IMG/VR virus record: IMGVR_UViG_3300021976_000047
Coordinates: 1 to 33,666 of that record
Origin: a virus
Strand: one strand, 5' to 3'
Length of the DNA: 33,666 nucleotides
Shown here: one piece after another, positions 1 through 33,661 of the stretch
Layout: the number at the start of each line of letters is the position of its first letter
Position numbering within the stretch: position 1 is the stretch's first letter
Notes under the pieces: model-generated
Database searches by the model: none
What the model was told of the DNA's origin: nothing
Seen by the model: the letters and a program-made list of their open reading frames with translations, nothing else
Program-made: the position numbers and the translations under genes

Positions 1-126
1 CCGCGTGCAGACCCTGGCTCGTCGACTCCTCGGCGTGAAGCCGATTCGAATCCCTGCGGAGACCCTCGCGGAGGTGAACACGTCGTGAGCGAGTACGAGC
101 CGTACGAAACGCCGTGGGGATGGCGT
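1..126. repeat. Terminal direct repeat, left copy (circular contig overlap)
   Basis: Bases 1-126 are identical to 33536-33661. The repeat begins inside the repA 3' end and runs into repB, so it sits within coding sequence and shows no end-like features. Its length is close to a common assembly k-mer, so it most likely marks a circular or circularly permuted molecule of about 33,535 bp, not a true phage terminal repeat. The five bases after the match differ between copies, which looks like a ragged contig end. Confidence 0.93.
2..88 (+). CDS. repA: RepA C-terminal end (duplicate of the 3' end of the gene at 32478)
   Basis: This is the last 28 codons and stop of the replication protein gene, present here only because the contig overlaps itself. 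The reading frame and bases are identical to 33537-33623. It is not a separate gene. Confidence 0.9.
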   Translation, partial: RVQTLARRLLGVKPIRIPAETLAEVNTS

Positions 127-363
127 CGGAAGAAGAACCCGTTGACTACGACCTCGGTTCAAAAGACTGCGGTGAAGGTTGCTGTCATCCACCGGATGGG
201 TAACAACGGCTGGAAGCCTCAGGAGATCGCCGACCTGCTGGACATCACTGAGGCGACGGTCATCCGCTGGTGGCACAACGACCACCCGTACGACGAGGAT
301 TGGTCCCAGGGGATGCGATACCTCTATCGGAAGTACATGGAGAAAATCGAGGAGAAGCTGTGA
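85..363 (+). CDS. repB: RepB-like helix-turn-helix replication/DNA-binding protein
   Basis: A 92-residue protein starting at a GTG that overlaps the repA stop (GTGA), so its translation is coupled to RepA. Residues about 43-62 form a clear helix-turn-helix (WKPQEIADLLDITEATVIRW). The N-terminus is basic and the C-terminus is a charged helix. In pAL5000-type plasmids of Rhodococcus, Mycobacterium and Brevibacterium, repA is followed by an overlapping small repB of similar size and fold whose product binds the origin. Position, size and fold match, so I infer the same role here. It could instead be a general regulator. The name rests on synteny, not on sequence identity that I could measure. 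Confidence 0.68.
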   Translation: MSEYEPYETPWGWRRKKNPLTTTSVQKTAVKVAVIHRMGNNGWKPQEIADLLDITEATVIRWWHNDHPYDEDWSQGMRYLYRKYMEKIEEKL

Positions 364-3951: not shown

Positions 3952-3979
3952 TATCCTGTGTGTCAACAACAGACACACA
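3952..3979 (+). promoter_or_regulatory. Late control promoter-like -10 with operator (8-bp arms)
   Basis: A -10-like TATCCT (3952-3957) runs into TGTGTGTC (3957-3964), AACAACA and GACACACA (3972-3979), an inverted repeat with perfect 8-bp arms. The predicted start of transcription falls inside the operator, so binding would shut off the operon starting with terS. No good -35 is visible, so the promoter may need an activator. A similar TTATCCT precedes the scaffold gene at 8110-8116. Confidence 0.6.
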
Positions 3980-3989
3980 GCCACAAGCG

Positions 3990-4040
3990 GAGGAGGTTCA
4001 CATGGTCACACCAGGCCAGCGGTCGGATGTGAACCTCCTC
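3990..4040 (+). promoter_or_regulatory. 14-bp perfect hairpin hiding the ribosome binding site ahead of terS
   Basis: The arms GAGGAGGTTCACAT (3990-4003) and ATGTGAACCTCCTC (4027-4040) are perfectly complementary, with a 23-base loop. The left arm contains AGGAGG (3991-3996) and the first two bases of ATG 4002, so in RNA it would block initiation of the leader peptide. As DNA it could be a terminase recognition site, since it lies just ahead of terS. The repeat itself is certain; its role is inferred. Confidence 0.75.
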
Positions 4041-8151: not shown

Positions 8152-8745
8152 ATGTCAGATCAGACCCAGGTGGTCGACGCCAACACCGCTTCTGTCGAGG
8201 AAGTCAACGCAGCTCTCGGGCTGGGAGATGTGTCACAGCAGGACGACACAGACACTTCGACGGAGGAGCAGGACACCGATCAGGACGAAGGCCAGGAGCC
8301 CAAGTTCGAGAACCTTCCCAAGCACTACCAGGACGAGATCCTGAAGCTACGGCGTGAGAACGCGGCAGCTCGGGTGAAGGTCCGGGAGGTGCGCAAGGGG
8401 ACTCAGGTCAAGGTGGACACCGAAACGGTGGAGGCAGCGCGGGAGCAGGCACGGAGCGAAGCCCGACTCGAATACGGGATGAAGCTGGCCGCAGCGGAGG
8501 TTCGCGCCTCCCTCACCAGCGTGATCCCCGAGGATCGGGTCGAGGACGTAATGGACGAACTGAACCTCACCCGGTACGTGGATGAGGAAGGCGAAGTCGA
8601 TCTCGACGCCGTGAAGCTCCTGAAGGAGAAGTACCAGGCTCTGCTTGGCCAGAAGCGCAAGCCCAAGGTCAACACCGCCGCAACCAGCTCGACCTCGGCG
8701 AAGACCCCCAAGCAGGACTTCGCTGACCTGTTGAACACCCTCTGA
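8152..8745 (+). CDS. Capsid scaffolding protein
   Basis: A 197-residue protein with a strong ribosome binding site (GGAGG eight bases before ATG). It has an acidic, disordered N-terminus (about 25-60), long charged helices (about 60-125) and a short C-terminal segment ending in KQDFADLLNTL. This composition, size and place between portal and major capsid are typical of scaffolds. The scaffold would guide procapsid assembly and then leave. The N-terminal region encodes TGTGTC...GACACA (8229-8250), one of the intragenic operator-like sites, within DVSQQDDTDT. Confidence 0.8.
   Translation: MSDQTQVVDANTASVEEVNAALGLGDVSQQDDTDTSTEEQDTDQDEGQEPKFENLPKHYQDEILKLRRENAAARVKVREVRKGTQVKVDTETVEAAREQARSEARLEYGMKLAAAEVRASLTSVIPEDRVEDVMDELNLTRYVDEEGEVDLDAVKLLKEKYQALLGQKRKPKVNTAATSSTSAKTPKQDFADLLNTL
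8229..8250. promoter_or_regulatory. Intragenic operator-like site (TGTGTC-N10-GACACA)
   Basis: TGTGTC at 8229-8234 and GACACA at 8245-8250, followed at once by a second GACAC. It lies inside the scaffold gene about 80 bases after its start and uses the rare Thr codon ACA. Confidence 0.4.
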
Positions 8746-9668: not shown

Positions 9669-9687
9669 TCTCAGCTGACTACCTGAT

Positions 9688-9719
9688 GGGGCCCAGTGAG
9701 ATCACCTCTCCTGGGCCCC
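9688..9719 (+). terminator. Hairpin after the capsid gene, possible attenuator
   Basis: A perfect 9-bp stem (GGGGCCCAG 9688-9696, CTGGGCCCC 9711-9719) with a 14-base loop lies 19 bases after the capsid stop. There is no T-run, so it may lower downstream transcription or protect the capsid mRNA end and may not be a full stop. Confidence 0.55.
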
Positions 9720-9760
9720 TGTGGGCGATCTGAGACCTTCTAGCGAACGGAGCCACACCC

Positions 9761-10207
9761 ATGGCCCTCCTGGTCACCGTCGAGGACGTAGAGGATGTCC
9801 TGGGCTACGAGGTGGAGGAGTCCGCCATCACCAAGGCCCAGTTCCAGATCGGGAGCTACCTGGGTCTGGGCCTCGCCGACGACGAGGTGACTGACGAACT
9901 CGTCGCCTCCGACCTGGCCAACCTGAAGAACGCCATCATCTGGCAGGTCGACTTCAACAAGAACTCTCCTGACGCCTCGACCCGTGACCCTGCGGTCCAG
10001 TCGGCGTCCACCAACGGTGTGTCTGTGTCTTACCGTGCGGGAGACACAGACCAGATCCTCATGCTCGGTTCGATGGCCATGCGATGCATCAATCTTTTGA
10101 GCTGGAACCGGGCTGGTGTCAGAATCCGCCGGGCCAAGATGCGACGGGTCGACGACTGTGAGCGTCCTGACCCCTGGGTCACCCTCTCCCGTGGCGGGTC
10201 CCTCTGA
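9761..10207 (+). CDS. Head-tail adaptor (connector) protein
   Basis: A 148-residue protein. The N-terminal helical pattern (VTVEDVEDVLGYEVEESAIT) and later ANLKNAIIWQVDF match the gp6/gp15-type connectors that sit under the portal. It is the first gene after the capsid, the usual place. The 3' half carries a 10-bp-arm inverted repeat (10021-10051) and a reverse-strand copy of the A-rich motif (10091-10101), both made with rare codons. Confidence 0.76.
   Translation: MALLVTVEDVEDVLGYEVEESAITKAQFQIGSYLGLGLADDEVTDELVASDLANLKNAIIWQVDFNKNSPDASTRDPAVQSASTNGVSVSYRAGDTDQILMLGSMAMRCINLLSWNRAGVRIRRAKMRRVDDCERPDPWVTLSRGGSL
10021..10051. promoter_or_regulatory. Intragenic operator-like inverted repeat, 10-bp arms
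   Basis: GTCTGTGTCT (10021-10030) and AGACACAGAC (10042-10051) are perfect complements with an 11-base spacer. A further TGTGTC at 10018-10023 overlaps the left arm. This has the longest arms of the TGTGTC/GACACA family and lies inside the connector gene. Confidence 0.55.
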
Positions 10208-16770: not shown

Positions 16771-18650
16771 TGGGTACCGGTCGCATCATCAACTTCCTGG
16801 ACACCCATGTCGGTCAGGACCAGCCGCTCACGAACTACAACGCGGGTGGCTCGATGTACATCCGCAACTGGAGCGGCTCCGCGCGGCTGGGCTTCCTCTA
16901 CTGCAACCGCCCAGTCCCACTCGGGGTCACTGTGACCAAGGCCGAGCTGCACTTCTTCGGCTACGCCAAGACGGTCTCCGGGTCGGTCACGATGTACCTG
17001 AAGCGGTTGAAGCAGACCGTCACCTTCTCCAAGCTGAACTGGAACAACCGCCCCACTGCGTTCTACACCACCACGGAGAGGTCGGCCACCAAGTCCGGGA
17101 CCTACCCGGATCAGACCGAGTGGATCGTCAACGTCATGTCCGACGTGCAGACCATCGCCGACGGGAACGCCTGGTACGGGTGGCAGCTTCGGACGAACTG
17201 GGCCACCACCACGTGGAACCCCCGGTTCATGGCCGCGAACCACCCCAACCCCGACCTGCGGCCGTTCCTGGTAGTGGAGTGGTCCGACGCCCCTGACACC
17301 CCGACTCAGCTGTCCCCGTCCAGCGGGAACGTCATCTCCACCCCGGAGCCGATCCTGCGGTTCGACTACACCGATGTGTCAGGTGACACAGAGATCGCGG
17401 CGGTCCAGGTCCAGATCGACACCAACGCCCTCTTCTCCAGCCCCGACTACGACTCGGGTGTGGAGCCGGTCGACGGACCGCAGTGGGACCTCACGGACGA
17501 ATCTTTTACGGCTACCGAGGACACGCTCTACTACTGGCGGGTGAAGGTCCAGGACGGAGCCGGTCTCTGGTCCGGCTGGTCGGCCGCAGCCAGTTTCGTC
17601 TACAAGCCGCTTCCTGTCGTCACCATCGACTCTCCCGCTGAGGACCCGAACGATTTCGTGGATGAGCCGACCCCGGCGATCCTCTGGACCACCACGGGAA
17701 CCCAGGAGTCCTACCAGCTGGGCCTGTACCGGTACGACAGCGCGGGAAAGGCGTTCCTGGTTGACTCCCGCCCCCGCACGGTCTCCGCCACGGGTGACGG
17801 GTACCGCGTACCGGCCGGGGCGATCACGGTGAAGAACGCCACCTACCGGGTCGACGTGCGGATCTACGACGGTGAGGACCGCGAGGCCATCCCGAACGGA
17901 CCCGCCTACACCCAGGTGTCCCGGTTCTTCACCTACCAGTACAGCGCCCTCACGGCCCCTGTGACGAACCTGGAGGGCGCGGGCAATGATCCCTACCCTG
18001 GAGTCGTTTTGGAGTGGGACAGGGCCACCTTCCCCGATTCCTGGGCCATTGAGCGGGACGGAATCGTCATCGCCACCGGTCTCGACCCGGATGACGACAC
18101 CTTCGTCAGCGGAATCCACCACCAGTGGACCGATCGCACCCCGACCAAGGGCAGGGCCCACACCTACTCGGTGCAGGCGATCTCGGAGAACAAGGCCTCC
18201 GCGTCCAACCCGACCGTGGTGGTGACCAACGACATCGTCGGCACCTGGGTGATGGACGGAACCGACGGCGGACCAACGGTTCTGCTCGTACAGGACAAGG
18301 GCCGGACCATGCTGTTCGAGGAGCAGTCGGCCACCTACGCCCCGCTCGGAGCCACCAAGGTCTCACTGGTCACCCAGGGCCTGCGCGGATACACCGGAGA
18401 GATCCAAGGCGAGCTGCACTCCTCGGTCCTGGGTACCTCCGAGACGGCGACCCAGTGGCGGGACCTGATGCTCACCCTGAAGTCCTACGCGGGCCAGATC
18501 GTCTACCTGTTCATCCAGGACATGACCATCCCGGTGGTGCTGCAGAACGTCCAGGTCTACCGCAAGCCACAGCCGGATCTGATCTACGCGGTCAGCTTCA
18601 CCTTCCACCAGCAGGGGGACTTGAACTTCACTCCTCGTCTGGGAGGTTGA
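16770..18650 (+). CDS. Minor tail protein, multi-domain (DNRLRE-like and fibronectin-type)
   Basis: A 626-residue protein whose ATG overlaps the tape measure stop. Residues about 1-165 look like a DNRLRE/carbohydrate-binding-like beta sandwich (VTVTKAELHFFGYAKTVSGS; WIVNVMSDVQTIADG). Residues about 175-480 contain at least two fibronectin type III-like segments (TPTQLSPSSGNVISTPEPIL; LYYWRVKVQDGAGLWSGWSA). The final ~140 residues are a separate beta-rich distal-tail-like domain. It probably forms the tail tip next to the tape measure and helps contact the cell surface. An intragenic operator-like site lies at 17375-17390. Confidence 0.82.
   Translation: MGTGRIINFLDTHVGQDQPLTNYNAGGSMYIRNWSGSARLGFLYCNRPVPLGVTVTKAELHFFGYAKTVSGSVTMYLKRLKQTVTFSKLNWNNRPTAFYTTTERSATKSGTYPDQTEWIVNVMSDVQTIADGNAWYGWQLRTNWATTTWNPRFMAANHPNPDLRPFLVVEWSDAPDTPTQLSPSSGNVISTPEPILRFDYTDVSGDTEIAAVQVQIDTNALFSSPDYDSGVEPVDGPQWDLTDESFTATEDTLYYWRVKVQDGAGLWSGWSAAASFVYKPLPVVTIDSPAEDPNDFVDEPTPAILWTTTGTQESYQLGLYRYDSAGKAFLVDSRPRTVSATGDGYRVPAGAITVKNATYRVDVRIYDGEDREAIPNGPAYTQVSRFFTYQYSALTAPVTNLEGAGNDPYPGVVLEWDRATFPDSWAIERDGIVIATGLDPDDDTFVSGIHHQWTDRTPTKGRAHTYSVQAISENKASASNPTVVVTNDIVGTWVMDGTDGGPTVLLVQDKGRTMLFEEQSATYAPLGATKVSLVTQGLRGYTGEIQGELHSSVLGTSETATQWRDLMLTLKSYAGQIVYLFIQDMTIPVVLQNVQVYRKPQPDLIYAVSFTFHQQGDLNFTPRLGG
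17375..17390. promoter_or_regulatory. Intragenic operator-like site (TGTGTC-AGGT-GACACA)
   Basis: A perfect 6-bp-arm repeat with a 4-base spacer lies inside the minor tail gene, using the rare codon ACA. The spacing is the same as at 19616-19631. Confidence 0.5.
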
Positions 18651-18653
18651 GCC

Positions 18654-19805
18654 GTGAAGAGTCTTGGGCTCACCGCTGCTGACCAGAAGCTGTTCACCTC
18701 TGGCCTGCTCGGCAACCACAGCCTGGAGATCCAGGTCGAGATCCTCAACCGTGGCCACGTGATCCTGTCCGACATCTCCACCATGCTGATGGGCGGTCAG
18801 GTCAATGTGTCCGCCACTGCGGAGGTGACCCGGTCTGCCAGCCTGGAGCTGAAGGACCCGGCGCACCTGCTCAGCTTCGACACCAACAGCCCGCAGGACG
18901 CGGCGATGTTCATGGACCGGATGATTCGGGTGAGCTACCGCGTCCTGTCCTACGACCACCTGAACCGCTGGGTGACCATCCCGATCTTCACCGGGCCGAT
19001 CACCAAGATGAACCGATCCGGGATCATGGTTAACGTCGAATGCATGGGCAAGGAGCACTACGCCAAGAAGCCAGCGTGGCGGAACAAGAACTACGCCATC
19101 GGAACCCTCCGCACTTCGATCGTGCGGGAGCTGCTGGTCAACGTCGGCGAGACCAAGTTCTCCATCGAGGCCTGGGACAAGCGCACCGCCAACAACTACG
19201 GCGTGACCCGCGAGACCGACGTGTGGACCCTGGCTAAAAGAATGGCCGCAGGTCGCCTCCTCTACTACGACGGGGCGGGCACCCTGGTGATGCGCGCTGC
19301 TCTGGCGCGGTCGGTGTTCACCTTCGGAACCGGCGACGGTGGCGCGATCCTGAACGATCCCCAGATCGACTACTCCAGCGACAGCGTCAAGAACATCGTC
19401 TGGGTGATCGGTGGAATCCCCAAGGGTGCGAAGTACCCGGTGCAGTACACCGCCTACGCCGACCGCAACCACCCGATGTCGGCACAGAAGCTGGGCTGGA
19501 ACGAGTCGGCCTGGCATCTACCGGAGAAGATCGAGGACCCGGACCTGCTCTCGGTGTCCGACTGCAAGGAGCGAGCCGACGCCGAGCTGACCCGGCTCCT
19601 GCGGATGTATGTGAATGTGTCGTTTGACACAATCCCCATTCCGCACCTGGAGTGCCTCGACGCCTGCACCTTGTCCCTGGATGGGCTGTCGATCGTGTTC
19701 GGCCTGGATGACTTCTCCATCCCGCTCAAGGTCGGCGACTCGATGACTATCGGGTTTAACGAGATGAGATCGGCCAATGTGACAAAGATCCGGCGGAAGA
19801 AGTGA
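18654..19805 (+). CDS. Minor tail protein (tail-hub/baseplate type)
   Basis: A 383-residue protein from a GTG three bases after the previous stop. The pattern resembles siphovirus tail-hub proteins of the gp27/gp37 type: an N-terminal sandwich (VNVSATAEVTRSASLELKDP), then a long mixed region with GPITKMNRSGIMVNVECMG and a C-terminal barrel (LSIVFGLDDFSIPLKVGDSM). It is third after the tape measure, the usual place for the hub. Assignment is by position and pattern. Confidence 0.75.
   Translation: MKSLGLTAADQKLFTSGLLGNHSLEIQVEILNRGHVILSDISTMLMGGQVNVSATAEVTRSASLELKDPAHLLSFDTNSPQDAAMFMDRMIRVSYRVLSYDHLNRWVTIPIFTGPITKMNRSGIMVNVECMGKEHYAKKPAWRNKNYAIGTLRTSIVRELLVNVGETKFSIEAWDKRTANNYGVTRETDVWTLAKRMAAGRLLYYDGAGTLVMRAALARSVFTFGTGDGGAILNDPQIDYSSDSVKNIVWVIGGIPKGAKYPVQYTAYADRNHPMSAQKLGWNESAWHLPEKIEDPDLLSVSDCKERADAELTRLLRMYVNVSFDTIPIPHLECLDACTLSLDGLSIVFGLDDFSIPLKVGDSMTIGFNEMRSANVTKIRRKK
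19616..19631. promoter_or_regulatory. Intragenic operator-like site (TGTGTC-GTTT-GACACA)
   Basis: A perfect 6-bp-arm repeat with a 4-base spacer near the end of the tail-hub gene. It encodes NVSFDT with rare ACA. Confidence 0.5.
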
Positions 19806-23300: not shown

Positions 23301-26300
23301 GCTGGGCTCCAACGGAGTGAGCACCTTCCGTGGTCAGGCAGAGATCTCCAACCTGACTGTGACCGGTGGGATGGCGATCCGGGGAACGTCCAACGAGTTG
23401 GCCAAGGGTGCAACCCTCCTCCTCGGTGCGGCGATCTCGGCGTCCCCGAACAGCCCGACCGTGGTGGTCGACTACGAGACCTCCAACACCTGGGCCGCTG
23501 TCGCCGGAATGGTCACCCCGACCTACCGCTCGATCCAGAAGCTGACCAGCGACTGGCTCCTCGCCCTGCGCTCCGGAACCTCCTACCGCGCCTGCCAGTT
23601 CAACGCCGACGGAACCCTCGACCGGGTGCACGGCGGGACGTACGGCGATGGGCTGGATCTGGTGAACGCGGTCCAGATCAACAACACTGGACCGGTCTAT
23701 GCGATGGGGACCAATGGCCGGATCTATCGGCTCCCGTACACGGACAGCGTCGCAGGAGCCACCAGGGACCTCTTCTGGGACTTCGCAGCGGGCAACCCTG
23801 GGGGAATCACCACCTCGGGCACTGTGGCCTTCACGGGCGGATACGCCTCCCTCACGGCCAACGCCGGATCTGATGCCGAGTTCCGGACCACCACGGCGAT
23901 GAACCTGCGCGGGAAGCAGGTGTCGGCCAAGGTCACCCCGCCGATCGCGGTGCTGGCCGGTGGTCAGAAGATTGAGATGCGGCTGGAGTACGACTCCACC
24001 GTCTGGGCCACCGCGTACGTAGAGCGCGCGCTGTCGGGTTCGACCCCGATCAACCGGCTCTACTTCACCACCAACAGCTCCAGCGGGTCGGGAGTGGACT
24101 ACACCACTTCGATGGCCTACTGGCGGATCGCTGAGTCCAACGGATCGTTCCAGCTCTACACGTCCAGTGACGGCATCACCTACACCCTCCGCCTCACCCG
24201 TGGTCACAGTTTCAGCACCGCGCAGCTTGCCTCCACCGATGTGGTGTTCCGGGAGGAGAACGGCGGAACTGAGCTGATTTCGAATACCAGCTTCGAGACC
24301 AGCTTCACGGGTTGGACGAAGTTCCTGAATGAGGCGTGGACCGACTACCCACGGTTCGACTACCAGCGGGTCACCGATCAGGCCTACGACGGCACCTACT
24401 CGGCACGGGTGTACGCCAACCAGAACGCCTTCGGTGGTGACCTCGTCGGCCTGCGGTTCTCCGACACCAGCCTGATTCCTCAGGTGGCCGGATCTTCTTA
24501 CCAGGTCAGTTTCAAGGCCCGAGCTTCCGCCTCGGGGCGAGTGGCCAAGAACGGCTGGGCTCGCTTCGACGCGAACAAGAACTACCTCGGATTCACATGG
24601 GGTGGTGCTGGTTACACCGGGATCACCATTCCAACCGCATCCTGGGGAACGCTGACCGACACCTACACCAGCTCTGACAGCACCGGGTACTTCACCCCGG
24701 TCCTGCTGGTGGGTCCGACTGCGAATGTCACAAGCGGAACCACCATCGCTTACCTGGACGACACTTCTCTCATCGTCACCGGCTCCGCCACAGCTCTGGT
24801 GACCCGCATCGACGATGTCGCGGTGGAGTGGGGACCGTCGGACTTCGGCACCACCTTCACCCGAAAGGATGCCTCCAACGCCCCCGCACTGGGAACGGAC
24901 GGGACCGACCTCCTTGTGTCTGAGTACGACACAGTCAACAACAAGGTGGTCATCTACAAGGTCGACCCCCGCAGCCCTGGTGTCATCACCTCCACCCTGA
25001 CCTCGGGGACCCACGCCGACTTCGCCGCGACCCGTCCGCTGATCCGGGTGGACTACGGATCTTTTGACCTTGGTGCGTCCCGCTACCTGGTCTACGGGTC
25101 GAACGGTTCTCCGATCGCCATGGCCTTCTCGGTGTCGGGATCGACCCTGACCTATCAGCCGACCCAGAACTTTCCTCTTGCCGGTCTGGCCGGTGGTGCC
25201 TACGACGGGACCCAGTTCTGGTCGCTGAACACCGACGGTGTGATGAGCAAGCACACCGGCATCGTCTGGACCGACTCCTCCGCGTGGACCAAGACCTGGT
25301 TCGGTGCGTCGTCCTGGTACGACGGGAACGCGACCGGAGGAACGCACGAGACCACCGCCAGCCCACGGGCCAGCTTCAGCATGAAGAAGCGGGCGCGGTA
25401 CACCGTCACGTCCACCGCGATCCCGGACGAGGGCGGTACGGACGACCCCGATCGGATCAGGGTCTACCTGGCCAGCGGCCTGGCCACCACTCTGTACCTC
25501 CAGGGGACCTCGGCCGACGGGGTGAACTCGCTCGTCCTGACCTCGGCCACGTTCTCCGGCACGTCGGCACCGGTCAGCTCCAACTTCCCGAACGCAATCC
25601 CTGGCCAGATCAAGAATGATTCCTCCAGCCTGCTGATCTCGGGCCTGGGGACGATCAAGGGGACCACGGTCGAGGCGACCACCCACGTCACCACGCCGCT
25701 CTACAAGGGCTACGAGGGCGGTGCTGCGTCGGTCCTGGCCGATCCCTACCTGAGCCTGATGATGGACTGGGAGGTCGTCGCCACAGGTGGCGGAATCCTG
25801 GTCGGGAATGGAACGGGAGTCAGCTGGTCTCAGCGGATCATGCTGATGGGTGCGGGTCGCCATGCGACCTACGTCCCGGCCGGGTACTTCCAGATCGACA
25901 TGCCTGCCAACGGCACGGTGATCACGCGGTACAACGCGGTCGCGGGAGTCAGTGACACGGTGACAGTGGCTTCCGGAGTCATCCCGCTGAGCACCTGGTC
26001 GACTCTCTACTACGTCGTCCCGTTCGGAGCGACCAGCACCTCGCTCCCAGCCAACTTCCGGATCGTCAACTACACCGCCGGTAACGACTTCACCACGCCG
26101 TGGAACTGGATTCCGATCGTCACCCGCAACGGCGGTACCTCGGGAGACTCTGAGGCTGCGACCTTCGGAACTCACCGCTGGATCGGTGGCCGCTACACCA
26201 CGGTCAATCCGAAGATCAACAACACCTTCCCGCTGGGGACCCAGCATGATGTCGACACCGCCGCTGCGGCTGACGTAGGTCTCTCGGTGACGGTGGCTGT

Positions 26301-28291: not shown

Positions 28292-28344
28292 GAAACCCCG
28301 CACATGTCACAGGTCGTCCCACCTAGATCCGTGTGCGGGGTTTC
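28292..28344. terminator. Bidirectional terminator between convergent operons
   Basis: A perfect 13-bp stem (GAAACCCCGCACA 28292-28304, TGTGCGGGGTTTC 28332-28344) has a 27-base loop. It is followed by TCTTTG on the plus strand and, on the minus strand, by a T-run (CTTTT). It separates the late operon (ends 28285) from the leftward operon (ends 28354) and can serve both. Confidence 0.9.
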
Positions 28345-30278: not shown

Positions 30279-30788
30279 CTACGCGGCCAGTGCCTTGTTG
30301 CGGTAGTACCGCGCCCGCTGGTCTTCGCGGTGGCAGGTTCGGCACTGACGCTTATTGCCTTGCCACCGGGTGTTCTCCTCGGAGTACGGGTGCTGCTGCG
30401 GGCAGTGGGTTTTGTTGGCCCAGAAGTTCGTCCCATGCCGCAGCTTGTCCTGCTCGTTCTCCGACTGGGTTCCCCAGGCGAGGTTCCCGGCGCGGTTGTT
30501 CTTCTTGTCGCCGTCCAGGTGCCGTGCCATCAGACCCTCTGGACGTGTCCCCGCGAACGCGGTCAGCACCAGCAGGTGCACGTTGACCGTGGTCATCCGG
30601 GAGTCGGTGTAGAGATTCACCCTCATGTATCCCTGGTGGTCGCGGTTGGACTGAGCTACCAGCGTGTCCTGCGGGGACCGCCATCGAGGGAGGCTGCGGA
30701 CTCGTCCGAGGTTGCTCACCGCGTAGAGGCCCTCCCAACCGCGCGCTGGCTTCCAGGTCTCGCCGGGGAGGTTGCGGGTGAAGTTCAT
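30279..30788 (-). CDS. HNH homing endonuclease (NUMOD4 + HNH), in the leftward operon
   Basis: A 169-residue protein from ATG 30788 (GGGAGC five bases upstream; ATGA overlap with the gene before it). The N-terminal NUMOD4 module (WKPARGWEGLYAVSNLGRVR) is followed by the HNH core (VHLLVLTAFAGTRPEGLMAR, then HLDGDKKNNRAGNLAWGTQS) and a Cys-containing tail (NKTHCPQQHPYSEENTRWQG; CRTCHRED). It is the same family as the gene at 19811, but here lies in the operon's own direction. Upstream in-frame sequence to 30998 is shadow. Confidence 0.85.
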   Translation of the reverse strand: MNFTRNLPGETWKPARGWEGLYAVSNLGRVRSLPRWRSPQDTLVAQSNRDHQGYMRVNLYTDSRMTTVNVHLLVLTAFAGTRPEGLMARHLDGDKKNNRAGNLAWGTQSENEQDKLRHGTNFWANKTHCPQQHPYSEENTRWQGNKRQCRTCHREDQRARYYRNKALAA

Positions 30789-30895
30789 GAGTAGCTCCCG
30801 TTCAGGATGATGAGGATGGCCATCGCCACTGCGGTAAGGCCACAGACCGCCAGCCAGATGCTGGCCTTGACGCGGTAGGTCTGGGAGGGAGTCAC
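30785..30895 (-). CDS. 36-aa single-pass membrane peptide
   Basis: GTG 30895 overlaps the stop of the gene before it (GTGA), and its stop overlaps the HNH ATG (ATGA). It encodes 36 residues with one hydrophobic helix (VKASIWLAVCGLTAVAMAIL). Tight coupling on both sides and the clear membrane segment support a real gene. Function unknown. Confidence 0.6.
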   Translation of the reverse strand: MTPSQTYRVKASIWLAVCGLTAVAMAILIILNGSYS

Positions 30896-31092
30896 TTCGA
30901 AACCTCCCGCGCCACCGAGGCGATGATCGCCATATCGATCTGGTCGAGCTTGCTGAGGTACTCCCTGGTCTGGGCCAGAGCCGCGTACGGGTCATCACTG
31001 ACCACGGCGCGGAGGCTGAGTTCCAGGAGGGTGGTGAGGTCCTGCTGCGGGGTCTCCTCCTCGGAGTCCTCCATGCATGGATCGGTGTTCAT
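30892..31092 (-). CDS. Small acidic helical protein, first gene of a leftward operon
   Basis: A 66-residue protein starting at ATG 31092, 11 bases after GAAAGGGA in the shared leader. It has an acidic start (CMEDSEEETPQQDLTTLLEL) and helical remainder (SKLDQIDMAIIASVAREVSK). It follows the promoter at 31138-31167. No domain recognised. Confidence 0.64.
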   Translation of the reverse strand: MNTDPCMEDSEEETPQQDLTTLLELSLRAVVSDDPYAALAQTREYLSKLDQIDMAIIASVAREVSK

Positions 31093-31186: not shown

Positions 31187-32038
31187 CTACTCCAGTTCCC
31201 GCAGGAGGTCTTCCAGCCAAGAATCGAGGTTCTGCGGCTTGGATGCCGAGGCAGGAACGTCCTCTGGAACGGGCTGTGCGGCGATCTGAGGGACTTCCAC
31301 GGTTGGAGGGTCCACTGGTACCGCCTCGACCTCCGCAGTCGCCACAGGAGCGGGACGCTGGTAGGCGACCTTGTCGTTCTCGTGGAAGCTGCGGTTGGTT
31401 TCGACGGTGTGCTCGAAGGTGGGCTTCTCGAACTTCACGAAGAGGTACTTGGCGTCCCGCTCGACCGTGGTGACCGTCCACCACTCGTAGATGGCCTTAC
31501 TGCCCTCGTGCCGGGCGATGGACCGCACGCGGTCGCCTACCTGAACCTCGGAGGCGTATCCGGTGAGGTGATCCTCTTCGACCTCCAGCGCGGTGATGAC
31601 CTTACGAGCTGGCCTAGCCATCCGTCGGGGGTGAGCGGCGCGGTATTCAGCCGAGCGGATCTTCTGCTCCTCGGCCCGTGCTCGCTTCTCCTCCGCCAGC
31701 TTCTCCTTCATCTCCTCGACCGAGGTGGCGTACGGGGCGTCACCGCCCAGCTCGGACTGCTCCCGAATCCAGGTGCGGATCACGCGGTTGATCCAGTTCA
31801 TGGTCACGTTGAACTTGGTGACGGTGGGGAAGGACCTTTCACGGATCTCAAGATCCCACTTGGCGTCTTCGTCCTCGAAGTAGTCGGTGGTGAGGTGCAG
31901 GGTGTAGTGCTTCCCGGCCCAGGTGTCGTACACCTCAGCCTTGAATCCCGTCTGGGTCCCCTGCCAGTTCACCGCAGGCTCCCAGGTCCAGGAGTAGTTC
32001 TCCCGCCAGGTCTCCTCGCGGGTCTTGGTGGTGCTCAT
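31187..32038 (-). CDS. Unknown protein, first leftward gene
   Basis: A 283-residue protein from ATG 32038, behind GAAGGGA in the shared leader; a start seven codons upstream is less likely. The N-terminal half is a mixed alpha/beta fold rich in Trp (ENYSWTWEPAVNWQGTQTGF). Then come a charged helix (about 115-150; KEKLAEEKRARAEEQKIRSA), a short beta domain (about 160-215; VGDRVRSIARHEGSKAIYEW) and an acidic Pro-rich C-terminus. It is the only gene of promoter P1. I do not recognise it, but its place makes it a candidate lysogeny gene. Confidence 0.72.
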   Translation of the reverse strand: MSTTKTREETWRENYSWTWEPAVNWQGTQTGFKAEVYDTWAGKHYTLHLTTDYFEDEDAKWDLEIRERSFPTVTKFNVTMNWINRVIRTWIREQSELGGDAPYATSVEEMKEKLAEEKRARAEEQKIRSAEYRAAHPRRMARPARKVITALEVEEDHLTGYASEVQVGDRVRSIARHEGSKAIYEWWTVTTVERDAKYLFVKFEKPTFEHTVETNRSFHENDKVAYQRPAPVATAEVEAVPVDPPTVEVPQIAAQPVPEDVPASASKPQNLDSWLEDLLRELE

Positions 32039-32083
32039 CTGGTGTCCCTTCAGATCCAACCCTCTTGGTCGGGCTGTAGGACT

Positions 32084-32112
32084 AGATTAACACATCAGTA
32101 GACACCATGCAA
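32084..32112 (-). promoter_or_regulatory. Leftward promoter P1 for the 32038-31187 gene
   Basis: On the minus strand, TTGCAT (32112-32107) and TAATCT (32089-32084) are 17 bases apart, a good sigma-70-type promoter. TGATGTGTTAA just before and into the -10 is shared with P2. An operator (32142-32156) lies 30 bases upstream. Confidence 0.7.
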
Positions 32113-32141
32113 CCCTGGTACCCATAGAGATATGTGTTACT

Positions 32142-32156
32142 TGTGTCACAGACACA
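32142..32156. promoter_or_regulatory. Operator in the divergent control region (TGTGTC-ACA-GACACA)
   Basis: A perfect 6-bp-arm repeat with a 3-base spacer, the same spacing as the operator at 731-745. It lies between leftward promoter P1 and the rightward replication genes, so it could act on both. Confidence 0.65.
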
Positions 32157-32179
32157 CTACTCAGGGGAGGGGCTCAATC

Positions 32180-32257
32180 GTGAGCACAGGGAGTGTAGGT
32201 CCCTACCCCCTCCAGGTTCTGGAACTCAGCGAGGCTGAGCTTGACTGGTGCGGGTGA
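32180..32257 (+). CDS. 25-aa possible leader peptide upstream of repA
   Basis: GTG 32180 follows GGGGAGGGG with a spacing of seven bases and encodes 25 residues (MSTGSVGPYPLQVLELSEAE...). The strong ribosome binding site is the main support. It lies just after the operator at 32142. It has no recognised family and may not be translated to any effect. Confidence 0.35.
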   Translation: MSTGSVGPYPLQVLELSEAELDWCG

Positions 32258-32340
32258 ACCACACCACGTCTTCACCGCGCCGACGACCGTCTACCCAAGG
32301 ACCTCTCAGGTCGTTCGATATGACGAACGCGGTGACGTTG
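32258..32340. other. Candidate replication origin region
   Basis: This gene-free stretch upstream of repA holds the inverted repeats GACCT-CTC-AGGTC (32300-32312) and CGTTCG-ATATGA-CGAACG (32312-32329), end to end. In pAL5000-type plasmids the RepB-bound origin lies near repA, as I recall upstream of it. These repeats are therefore the best origin or RepB-site candidates, but I see no iterons. Confidence 0.4.
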
Positions 32341-32367
32341 CGCACTGCACCGGTAGGATCGTAGACT
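32338..32367 (+). promoter_or_regulatory. Promoter for repA
   Basis: TTGCGC (32338-32343) and TAGACT (32362-32367) are 18 bases apart. The predicted start (near 32374) is at the foot of the large hairpin at 32377, about 100 bases before the repA GTG. Confidence 0.55.
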
Positions 32368-32376
32368 GATCGTGCT

Positions 32377-32462
32377 CAGTGGGATGAGCGGTGGAACGCC
32401 CCCCAGGTTTGATCACCTGGGGGCCACCAATCTCCCGGAGCCAGAACTGAATCATCCCACTG
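32377..32462 (+). ncRNA. Large three-tier stem-loop in the repA leader
   Basis: Three nested perfect stems: CAGTGGGATGA / TCATCCCACTG (32377-32387 with 32452-32462), GGTGG / CCACC (32390-32394 with 32424-32428), and CCCCCAGGT / ACCTGGGGG (32400-32408 with 32415-32423). The structure fills the 5' leader between promoter and gene; the weak repA ribosome binding region (GGAAGCAGG) begins at its last base. It may control RepA level, and so copy number, or act in replication. The type is listed as ncRNA because the structure is RNA-like; it is probably cis-acting. Confidence 0.6.
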
Positions 32463-32477
32463 GAAGCAGGTACTCAA

Positions 32478-33623
32478 GTGCAGGTCACCTTCGATCGAGA
32501 CCCACGGTCTCTCGAATCCGACACAGACATCTTCCTCAAGCACTTCCACACCCCTAGTCGTCTTCAGGTCGCCTCTCAGGTCCCCGGAGCGAAGGCTCTG
32601 AAGTTCTACTGGGTCCGCCCGTGCGAGGTCGTCTTCTTCGCCTGGATCGTGGTGAACAATCCGACCTACTTCAACCACATGGTCTTCGACCTCGACGGGG
32701 GACGGGTCAACGCTTTGGAGCGGCTCCAGAGGTTCATCGACCGCACCGGGATCTCCGGCACCGCAGTCCTGTCACCGAACGGGTTGCACTTCTGGGTCCG
32801 GATCGATCCGGTCTACCGCAGGCACTCGTCCTCGGTGGATTACTACTGGGCGGTCTGGGACAACATCAACCGCGTGCTGCAGGGCGACCTCGGCTACAGC
32901 GGGCACAGCGCCCGGAACCCGGAGTACGGCGACGCGGTGCGATACGAAGGCTGGGACCGCGTCTACGGGCTCGGGGAGCTTAAGCAGGCTCTGGGCTCGG
33001 AGTGGGAGTCCTCGAACTTCCTGACGAGGGTCAAGCGGTTCGAGGGTGGTGGTCTGGGTCGAAACCCCGCTCTCTACAGCGCGGTCCACGGGAAGGTCAA
33101 GGAGACCAACGATCTCGACCAGGTCATCCAGTTGGCGAGAGACCTGGCCCCGGAGTTCCTCAAGGATGGGAAGCCCCTCCCCGACGCGGAGGTCCGGGCG
33201 ATCGCCTTGTCGGTCTACCGCCGTCGCGGTCAGGGCGGGTACGGCGCGGAGACTCTCGCCCGGTTCGGTCGCAAAGGTGGGAAGAAGAACTCCGAGGCGC
33301 AGCGGGAGCAGCGGGAGAAGTCCATCGGGGTGGTCAACGCGGACCGGTCGGTGAAGTCCCAGAGCCGGGCGTCTGAGGCTCACCAACTTCGTCGCCGGGG
33401 ATTGACCCTGCGGAAGGTCGCGGAGGCCTTGAGCGTGAGCCTGGCGACGGTGAAGCGGTACCTGAGCACCGCAGTCCGCGTGTTGCTGGACCTGAACCCG
33501 GCGAACCGCAAGCCTAGGAACACCGGCCCCACCGACCGCGTGCAGACCCTGGCTCGTCGACTCCTCGGCGTGAAGCCGATTCGAATCCCTGCGGAGACCC
33601 TCGCGGAGGTGAACACGTCGTGA
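32478..33623 (+). CDS. repA: RepA: plasmid-type replication primase
   Basis: A 381-residue replication initiator of the ColE2/pAL5000 'Replicase' type. The primase core (about 1-165) shows VFDLDGG (D71, D73), SPNGLHFWVRID (H104) and GHSARNPEYGD (143-152), the usual acidic and 'RNP' motifs. Residues about 195-250 match a PriCT-like helical region (VIQLARDLAPEFLKDGKPLP). Residues about 307-330 form a helix-turn-helix (GLTLRKVAEALSVSLATVKR) for origin binding. GTG 32478 is the first start behind the structured leader. It should open the origin by laying a primer, with host polymerase and helicase doing the rest. RepB follows with a GTGA overlap. Confidence 0.86.
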   Translation: MQVTFDRDPRSLESDTDIFLKHFHTPSRLQVASQVPGAKALKFYWVRPCEVVFFAWIVVNNPTYFNHMVFDLDGGRVNALERLQRFIDRTGISGTAVLSPNGLHFWVRIDPVYRRHSSSVDYYWAVWDNINRVLQGDLGYSGHSARNPEYGDAVRYEGWDRVYGLGELKQALGSEWESSNFLTRVKRFEGGGLGRNPALYSAVHGKVKETNDLDQVIQLARDLAPEFLKDGKPLPDAEVRAIALSVYRRRGQGGYGAETLARFGRKGGKKNSEAQREQREKSIGVVNADRSVKSQSRASEAHQLRRRGLTLRKVAEALSVSLATVKRYLSTAVRVLLDLNPANRKPRNTGPTDRVQTLARRLLGVKPIRIPAETLAEVNTS

Positions 33624-33661
33624 GCGAGTACGAGCCGTACGAAACGCCGTGGGGATGGCGT
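33536..33661. repeat. Terminal direct repeat, right copy
   Basis: Identical to bases 1-126. See the left copy. Confidence 0.93.

Follow-up and report, generated by a model that had tools for sequence, protein, structure and literature searches.

Replicons of the ColE2 type (class C theta) have a small origin with a primer RNA (AGA), recognized by Rep, that lies downstream of or within rep, and mutations in the rep leader alter their copy number and incompatibility. Replicons of the pAL5000 type carry repA followed by an overlapping repB, which encodes a small DNA-binding protein. In ColE2, an antisense RNA that is complementary to the 5′ leader of rep controls the replicon (PMC5304414). Incompatibility of the Pseudomonas relatives is set by a portable stem-loop module of 175 to 194 nt upstream of rep, whose third stem-loop carries a putative antisense promoter (PMC5304414). 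For mycobacteriophage RepA replicons, the origin has been proposed to lie in repA or just upstream of it (PMC7157519).

The window analyzed here is the whole of IMG/VR virus record IMGVR_UViG_3300021976_000047 (33,666 nt). Its ends overlap, with bases 1 to 126 identical to bases 33536 to 33661 and the last five bases different, which indicates a circular genome of about 33,535 bases; the record is nevertheless not classed with those that have end repeats. A rightward gene run begins with repA and proceeds through a gene for a 92-aa helix-turn-helix (HTH) protein to the lysis, packaging, head, and tail genes, wherein the last of these are followed by a 13-bp stem with a T-rich tail (nucleotides 28292 to 28344). 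This stem lies between converging operons and is likely a bidirectional terminator. The leftward run, which includes a NUMOD4/HNH endonuclease gene (30279 to 30998), starts at 32038, and nucleotides 32039 to 32477 are a divergent control region between the two runs. The kin of the terminase are found in Streptomyces and Microbacterium phages, which points to a host that is likely actinobacterial.

Features of the repA region and related sites in the 33,666-nt window
Feature	Coordinates	Strand	Basis
Tiered hairpin, 86 nt; stems of 11, 5, and 9 bp; hexaloop UUGAUC	32377..32462	+	Folding, stem search, random genomes
RBS-like AGCAGG and repA GTG start codon, directly after the hairpin	32463..32480	+	Sequence; codon use of the first 31 codons
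repA, encoding a ColE2/pAL5000-class Rep (Pfam Replicase; helix-turn-helix at the C terminus)	32478..33623	+	Pfam, protein searches
Gene for 92-aa HTH protein, placed like repB; its GTG overlaps the stop codon of repA where the contig ends join	85..363	+	Gene layout, protein scans
Additional inverted repeats 5′ of the hairpin, e.g., 32172-32185, 32211-32223, 32225-32239, 32272-32335, 32312-32329	32160..32376	.	Folding, repeat search
Gene at the head of the leftward operon, oriented away from repA	31187..32038	-	Gene calls, codon use
Palindrome TGTGTCACAGACACA, copy of the repeated site in the divergent repA control region	32142..32156	.	Palindrome counts
TGTGTC-N(3-20)-GACACA sites, spacers vary	731-745, 3959-3977, 8229-8250, 10018-10048, 17375-17390, 19616-19631, 24915-24933, 32142-32156		Palindrome counts

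RepA matches the Pfam Replicase family (PF03090) above the curated cutoff and, as judged from its protein matches, is a ColE2-class Rep. Its relatives are plasmid Reps of the ColE2 and pAL5000 classes, with 25 to 33% identity over the aligned part; pairwise alignment with the pCASE1 Rep gives 35%, known Reps reach about 35% at most, and one match confined to 115 C-terminal residues reaches 39%. The coding signal from codon use begins with the first codon of repA, which supports the GTG at 32478. This phage genome lacks close relatives. No relatives of RepA were found among 50,697 phage records. Sister phages identified by the capsid protein comprise 47 loci, and the Replicase family was absent from the 28 of these records that were searched by a procedure that works on this genome and on plasmid controls; in the four sisters compared, little is common beyond the capsid gene. 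The 92-aa HTH protein matches no plasmid protein in sequence, RepB included. The predicted structure of RepA (mean pLDDT of 48.7) is too poor for use, and hemocyanin matches in a PDB search were ignored because they are summed weak repeats.

The hairpin immediately upstream of repA is real. A sequence-only reading of this DNA had described stems of 11, 5, and 9 bp over 86 nt, and these are confirmed as an outer stem (32377 to 32387 paired with 32452 to 32462), a middle stem (32390 to 32394 with 32424 to 32428), and an inner stem (32400 to 32408 with 32415 to 32423). The minimum free energy (MFE) of the structure is −43.4 kcal/mol (z of −4.27), and no shuffled sequence folds equally well. The three tiers are not perfectly nested, as had been claimed, because a 5-nt bulge separates the inner and middle stems and a 2 × 23 internal loop separates the middle and outer stems. 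As also claimed, the ribosome region starts at the last paired base, wherein AGCAGG and the GTG codon follow directly.

By plain MFE, the hairpin falls merely within the lowest 3% of 100-nt windows in this GC-rich genome. However, no other perfect stem of 11 bp or more in the genome nests one of 9 bp or more. Such nesting occurred in none of 20 random genomes and, counted anywhere, in 7 of 1500 first-order random genomes. The fold is also stable to the choice of assumed transcript ends: with starts at 32374, 32366, 32157, or 32092, the outer stem forms with a probability of 0.66 to 0.97 and the inner stem with a probability of 0.96. The hairpin region gave no Rfam match above the gathering score, and no terminator-like site (a G+C-rich stem and then a T-run) is present in nucleotides 32040 to 32700. 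A leader peptide ORF (32372/32384 to 32557) was rejected, given that it lacks a coding signal and scores like a false frame. Just within the repA coding sequence is a second hairpin, TTCGA-TC-GAGACC..GGTCTC-TCGAA (32490 to 32516), whose GATCGA is a candidate for pairing with the 86-nt hairpin through the UUGAUC loop of the latter.

The sequence-only reading had the hairpin filling the repA leader. Rather, inverted repeats extend upstream to approximately nucleotide 32160, and together with the hairpin, which stands last in the series, they form a block with about 300 nt of structured sequence. These repeats are equally strong as DNA, which argues against an RNA control module. Folded with DNA parameters, the 321 nt from 32160 to 32480 yield z values of −4.9 on one strand and −5.2 on the other, such that the block is as significant on both strands as it is under RNA parameters. 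The inverted repeats in 32160 to 32462 could therefore be a DNA element of a replication origin that binds RepA, the small HTH protein, or both, or that extrudes or unwinds, with RNA folding being incidental. We judge this explanation to be on the unlikely side. The block is the divergent intergenic control region between two operons, it is followed by a repA-HTH gene pair as in pCASE1 and pBLA8, and its location agrees with that proposed for mycobacteriophage RepA origins (PMC7157519). However, the block has no iterons or repeated binding motif beyond two weak repeats, GC skew marks no origin there, and the RepB-like protein is without a sequence match to plasmid RepB. Moreover, asymmetric tiers and a hexaloop in a structure ending exactly at the RBS are features that suit an RNA.

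With RNA parameters, nucleotides 32160 to 32480 give a z of −5.2 for the minus strand versus −2.5 for the plus strand. The centroid of the minus-strand fold is near the MFE structure, and 150-nt minus-strand windows starting at 32130 to 32190 have z values of −3.2 to −4.3 where those of the plus strand are about −1. These observations are what would be expected if the minus strand of the block encoded a structured noncoding RNA, or the leftward operon's 5′ leader, with the hairpin as its 5′ domain. However, better folding of the minus strand is general in this genome, where the strand difference at the block stands at the 35th percentile. A difference so ordinary does not tell which strand matters, which also favors an origin acting as DNA. 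For this reason, a minus-strand RNA was dropped as the favorite, a position it had owed to the z of −5.2. Given also that no Rfam match and no promoter above chance were found for it, we consider such an RNA highly improbable.

No consensus promoter was found around the hairpin, and relaxed promoter matches on either strand are at or below the number in shuffled sequences. Thus, the transcript start that had been placed at the hairpin foot is not confirmed. The best promoter-like site on the minus strand (32456, with a transcription start near 32444) would place an RNA start within the hairpin and is at chance level.

Our preferred interpretation, which we hold tentatively and with somewhat less than even confidence, is that the repA 5′ UTR contains a replication control module of the plasmid type, which works like the ColE2 rep leader or the Pseudomonas REx-C module and of which the hairpin is the stem-loop closest to rep. 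We draw this likeness because the layout matches in its strong leader structure, its position by rep, and the class of the Rep, all of which can be read directly from the sequence. The beyond-chance structure in a noncoding leader, ending at the RBS, favors such a module. In the proposed mechanism, the leader of the repA mRNA would fold as a strong stem-loop ending just before the ribosome site, and its exposed loop would be the binding target of an opposite-strand RNA or of some other factor. This binding would alter ribosome access to repA, which would set the amount of Rep and hence the number of genome copies. We thereby infer that the hairpin may act as RNA, that an antisense RNA may exist, and that copy number may be set in this manner. 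Because the RBS adjoins the hairpin rather than lying within it, an effect on translation is not obvious. The earlier proposal of ColE2-type copy-number control via the rep leader is made plausible in its outline by the PF03090 Rep, the Col156-like tiered leader, and the analogy with published systems; no promoter above chance was found for its putative antisense component.

A leader structure of this kind might also serve a passive or cis-acting role without antisense RNA, either as a stabilizer of the long repA-to-virion mRNA or as an attenuator or terminator that limits read-through into repA. Other strong hairpins without T-runs, at 9687 to 9720 (z of −4.5) and at 3990 to 4040 (z of −3.6), suggest that this phage commonly makes structured mRNA. 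However, no T-run follows the stem upstream of repA, unlike the terminator at 28292 to 28344, and the position at the foot of the rep RBS matches the ColE2 layout. We therefore regard a passive or cis-acting role as rather unlikely. The first of these other hairpins is G+C-rich and is located directly 3′ of the major capsid gene.

The control module that we favor can be examined further by comparing the 110 nt that precede the start codons of 31 Reps, including this RepA. The leaders of the Col156 ColE2-type plasmid (z of −3.9), this genome (−3.4), and a Moraxella ColE2-type plasmid (−2.9) stand out among the 31. Besides this genome, structured leaders (z of about −3 or lower) were found only in gammaproteobacterial ColE2-type plasmids among the approximately 30 compared. 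For one gammaproteobacterial plasmid, from Cobetia, the leader is structured with the annotated start but not with the longest-ORF start. The leaders of actinobacterial Rep relatives (pB264, pCASE1, and others) are without such structure. Searches of phages, plasmids, viral contigs, and genomes with the leader DNA, the 92-aa HTH protein, and RepA, whole or in fragments, yielded no homologous leader close enough for covariation analysis, and the 23 genome relatives are at most 33% identical, with leaders that cannot be aligned.

Control of repA may also involve a dispersed DNA site. The palindrome TGTGTC-N(3-8)-GACACA occurs six times versus 0.02 expected, and none of 100 shuffled genomes has as many; when spacers of up to 20 are allowed, there are nine occurrences versus 0.07 expected. 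All other 6-bp hairpin stems recur at most twice in the genome. Three of the listed copies are in promoter-like or control regions, and five are inside genes. The copy at 731 to 745 is at a consensus-like promoter (TTGACA at 702; read by eye), and that at 3959 to 3977 is just before the terminase genes. The sites look like dispersed operators of one regulator, as with repressor sites (stoperators), and they may matter more than the hairpin for repA control. Just downstream of one palindrome and upstream of the terminase genes is the 3990 to 4040 hairpin, a 14-bp perfect stem (GAGGAGGTTCACAT/ATGTGAACCTCCTC) that in its predicted fold would hide the RBS GGAGGAGG and its ATG.

The suggestion that the hairpin is a switch between prophage and lytic growth finds no backing, as no integrase, partition gene (ParA/ParB), or recognized repressor was found among the proteins scanned, and such a switch is speculation. 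The same proteins include no parA or parB product of the kind carried by an extrachromosomal RepA prophage with parABS. Since many small proteins of this genome are without any match, lysogeny is neither shown nor excluded. A broader scenario, which we consider possible but doubtful, is that a phage, probably actinobacterial, took over a ColE2-class plasmid replicon for its own replication, with a rep-leader RNA module that sets copy number while the phage infects or persists in the manner of a plasmid. Should RepA indeed be controlled by the leader, plasmid-type RNA copy-number control would be built into a phage genome, as part of a compact replicon from a new branch of Reps. This arrangement would raise the question of how a phage reconciles its need for many genome copies with a copy-limiting device.

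Among known systems, cluster A mycobacteriophages with RepA or RNA-based prophage origins resemble this genome in having a plasmid-type phage origin beside a rep gene or a noncoding RNA, but they have parABS, which was not found here, and the available part of their description includes no such leader hairpin (PMC7157519). The pAL5000-type actinobacterial plasmids pCASE1, pBLA8, and pB264 share the RepA family, and the first two also have a small overlapping HTH gene downstream of repA. However, the repA leaders of pB264 and pCASE1 are not structured beyond chance, and the HTH protein of this genome is not recognizably related to those of such plasmids. The REx-C module (Pseudomonas RepA-PFP/RepJ) differs in length, at 175 to 194 nt versus about 300 nt, and no coding leader peptide is present here. 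Like the phage block, it has several stem-loops upstream of rep, of which the last is complex and adjoins rep, in a single control region, a likeness of layout rather than of recognizable sequence kinship (PMC5304414). Relative to ColE2-type replicons (the Col156 plasmid p1618-3 and the ColE2 RNAI/rep leader), the locus resides in a phage genome, its Rep is about 27% identical, no antisense promoter is detectable, and its leader sequence is unrelated. Nonetheless, it shares with them a Replicase-family Rep and, with the Col156 plasmid, a rep leader in which a strong tiered stem-loop lies a short distance before the start codon.
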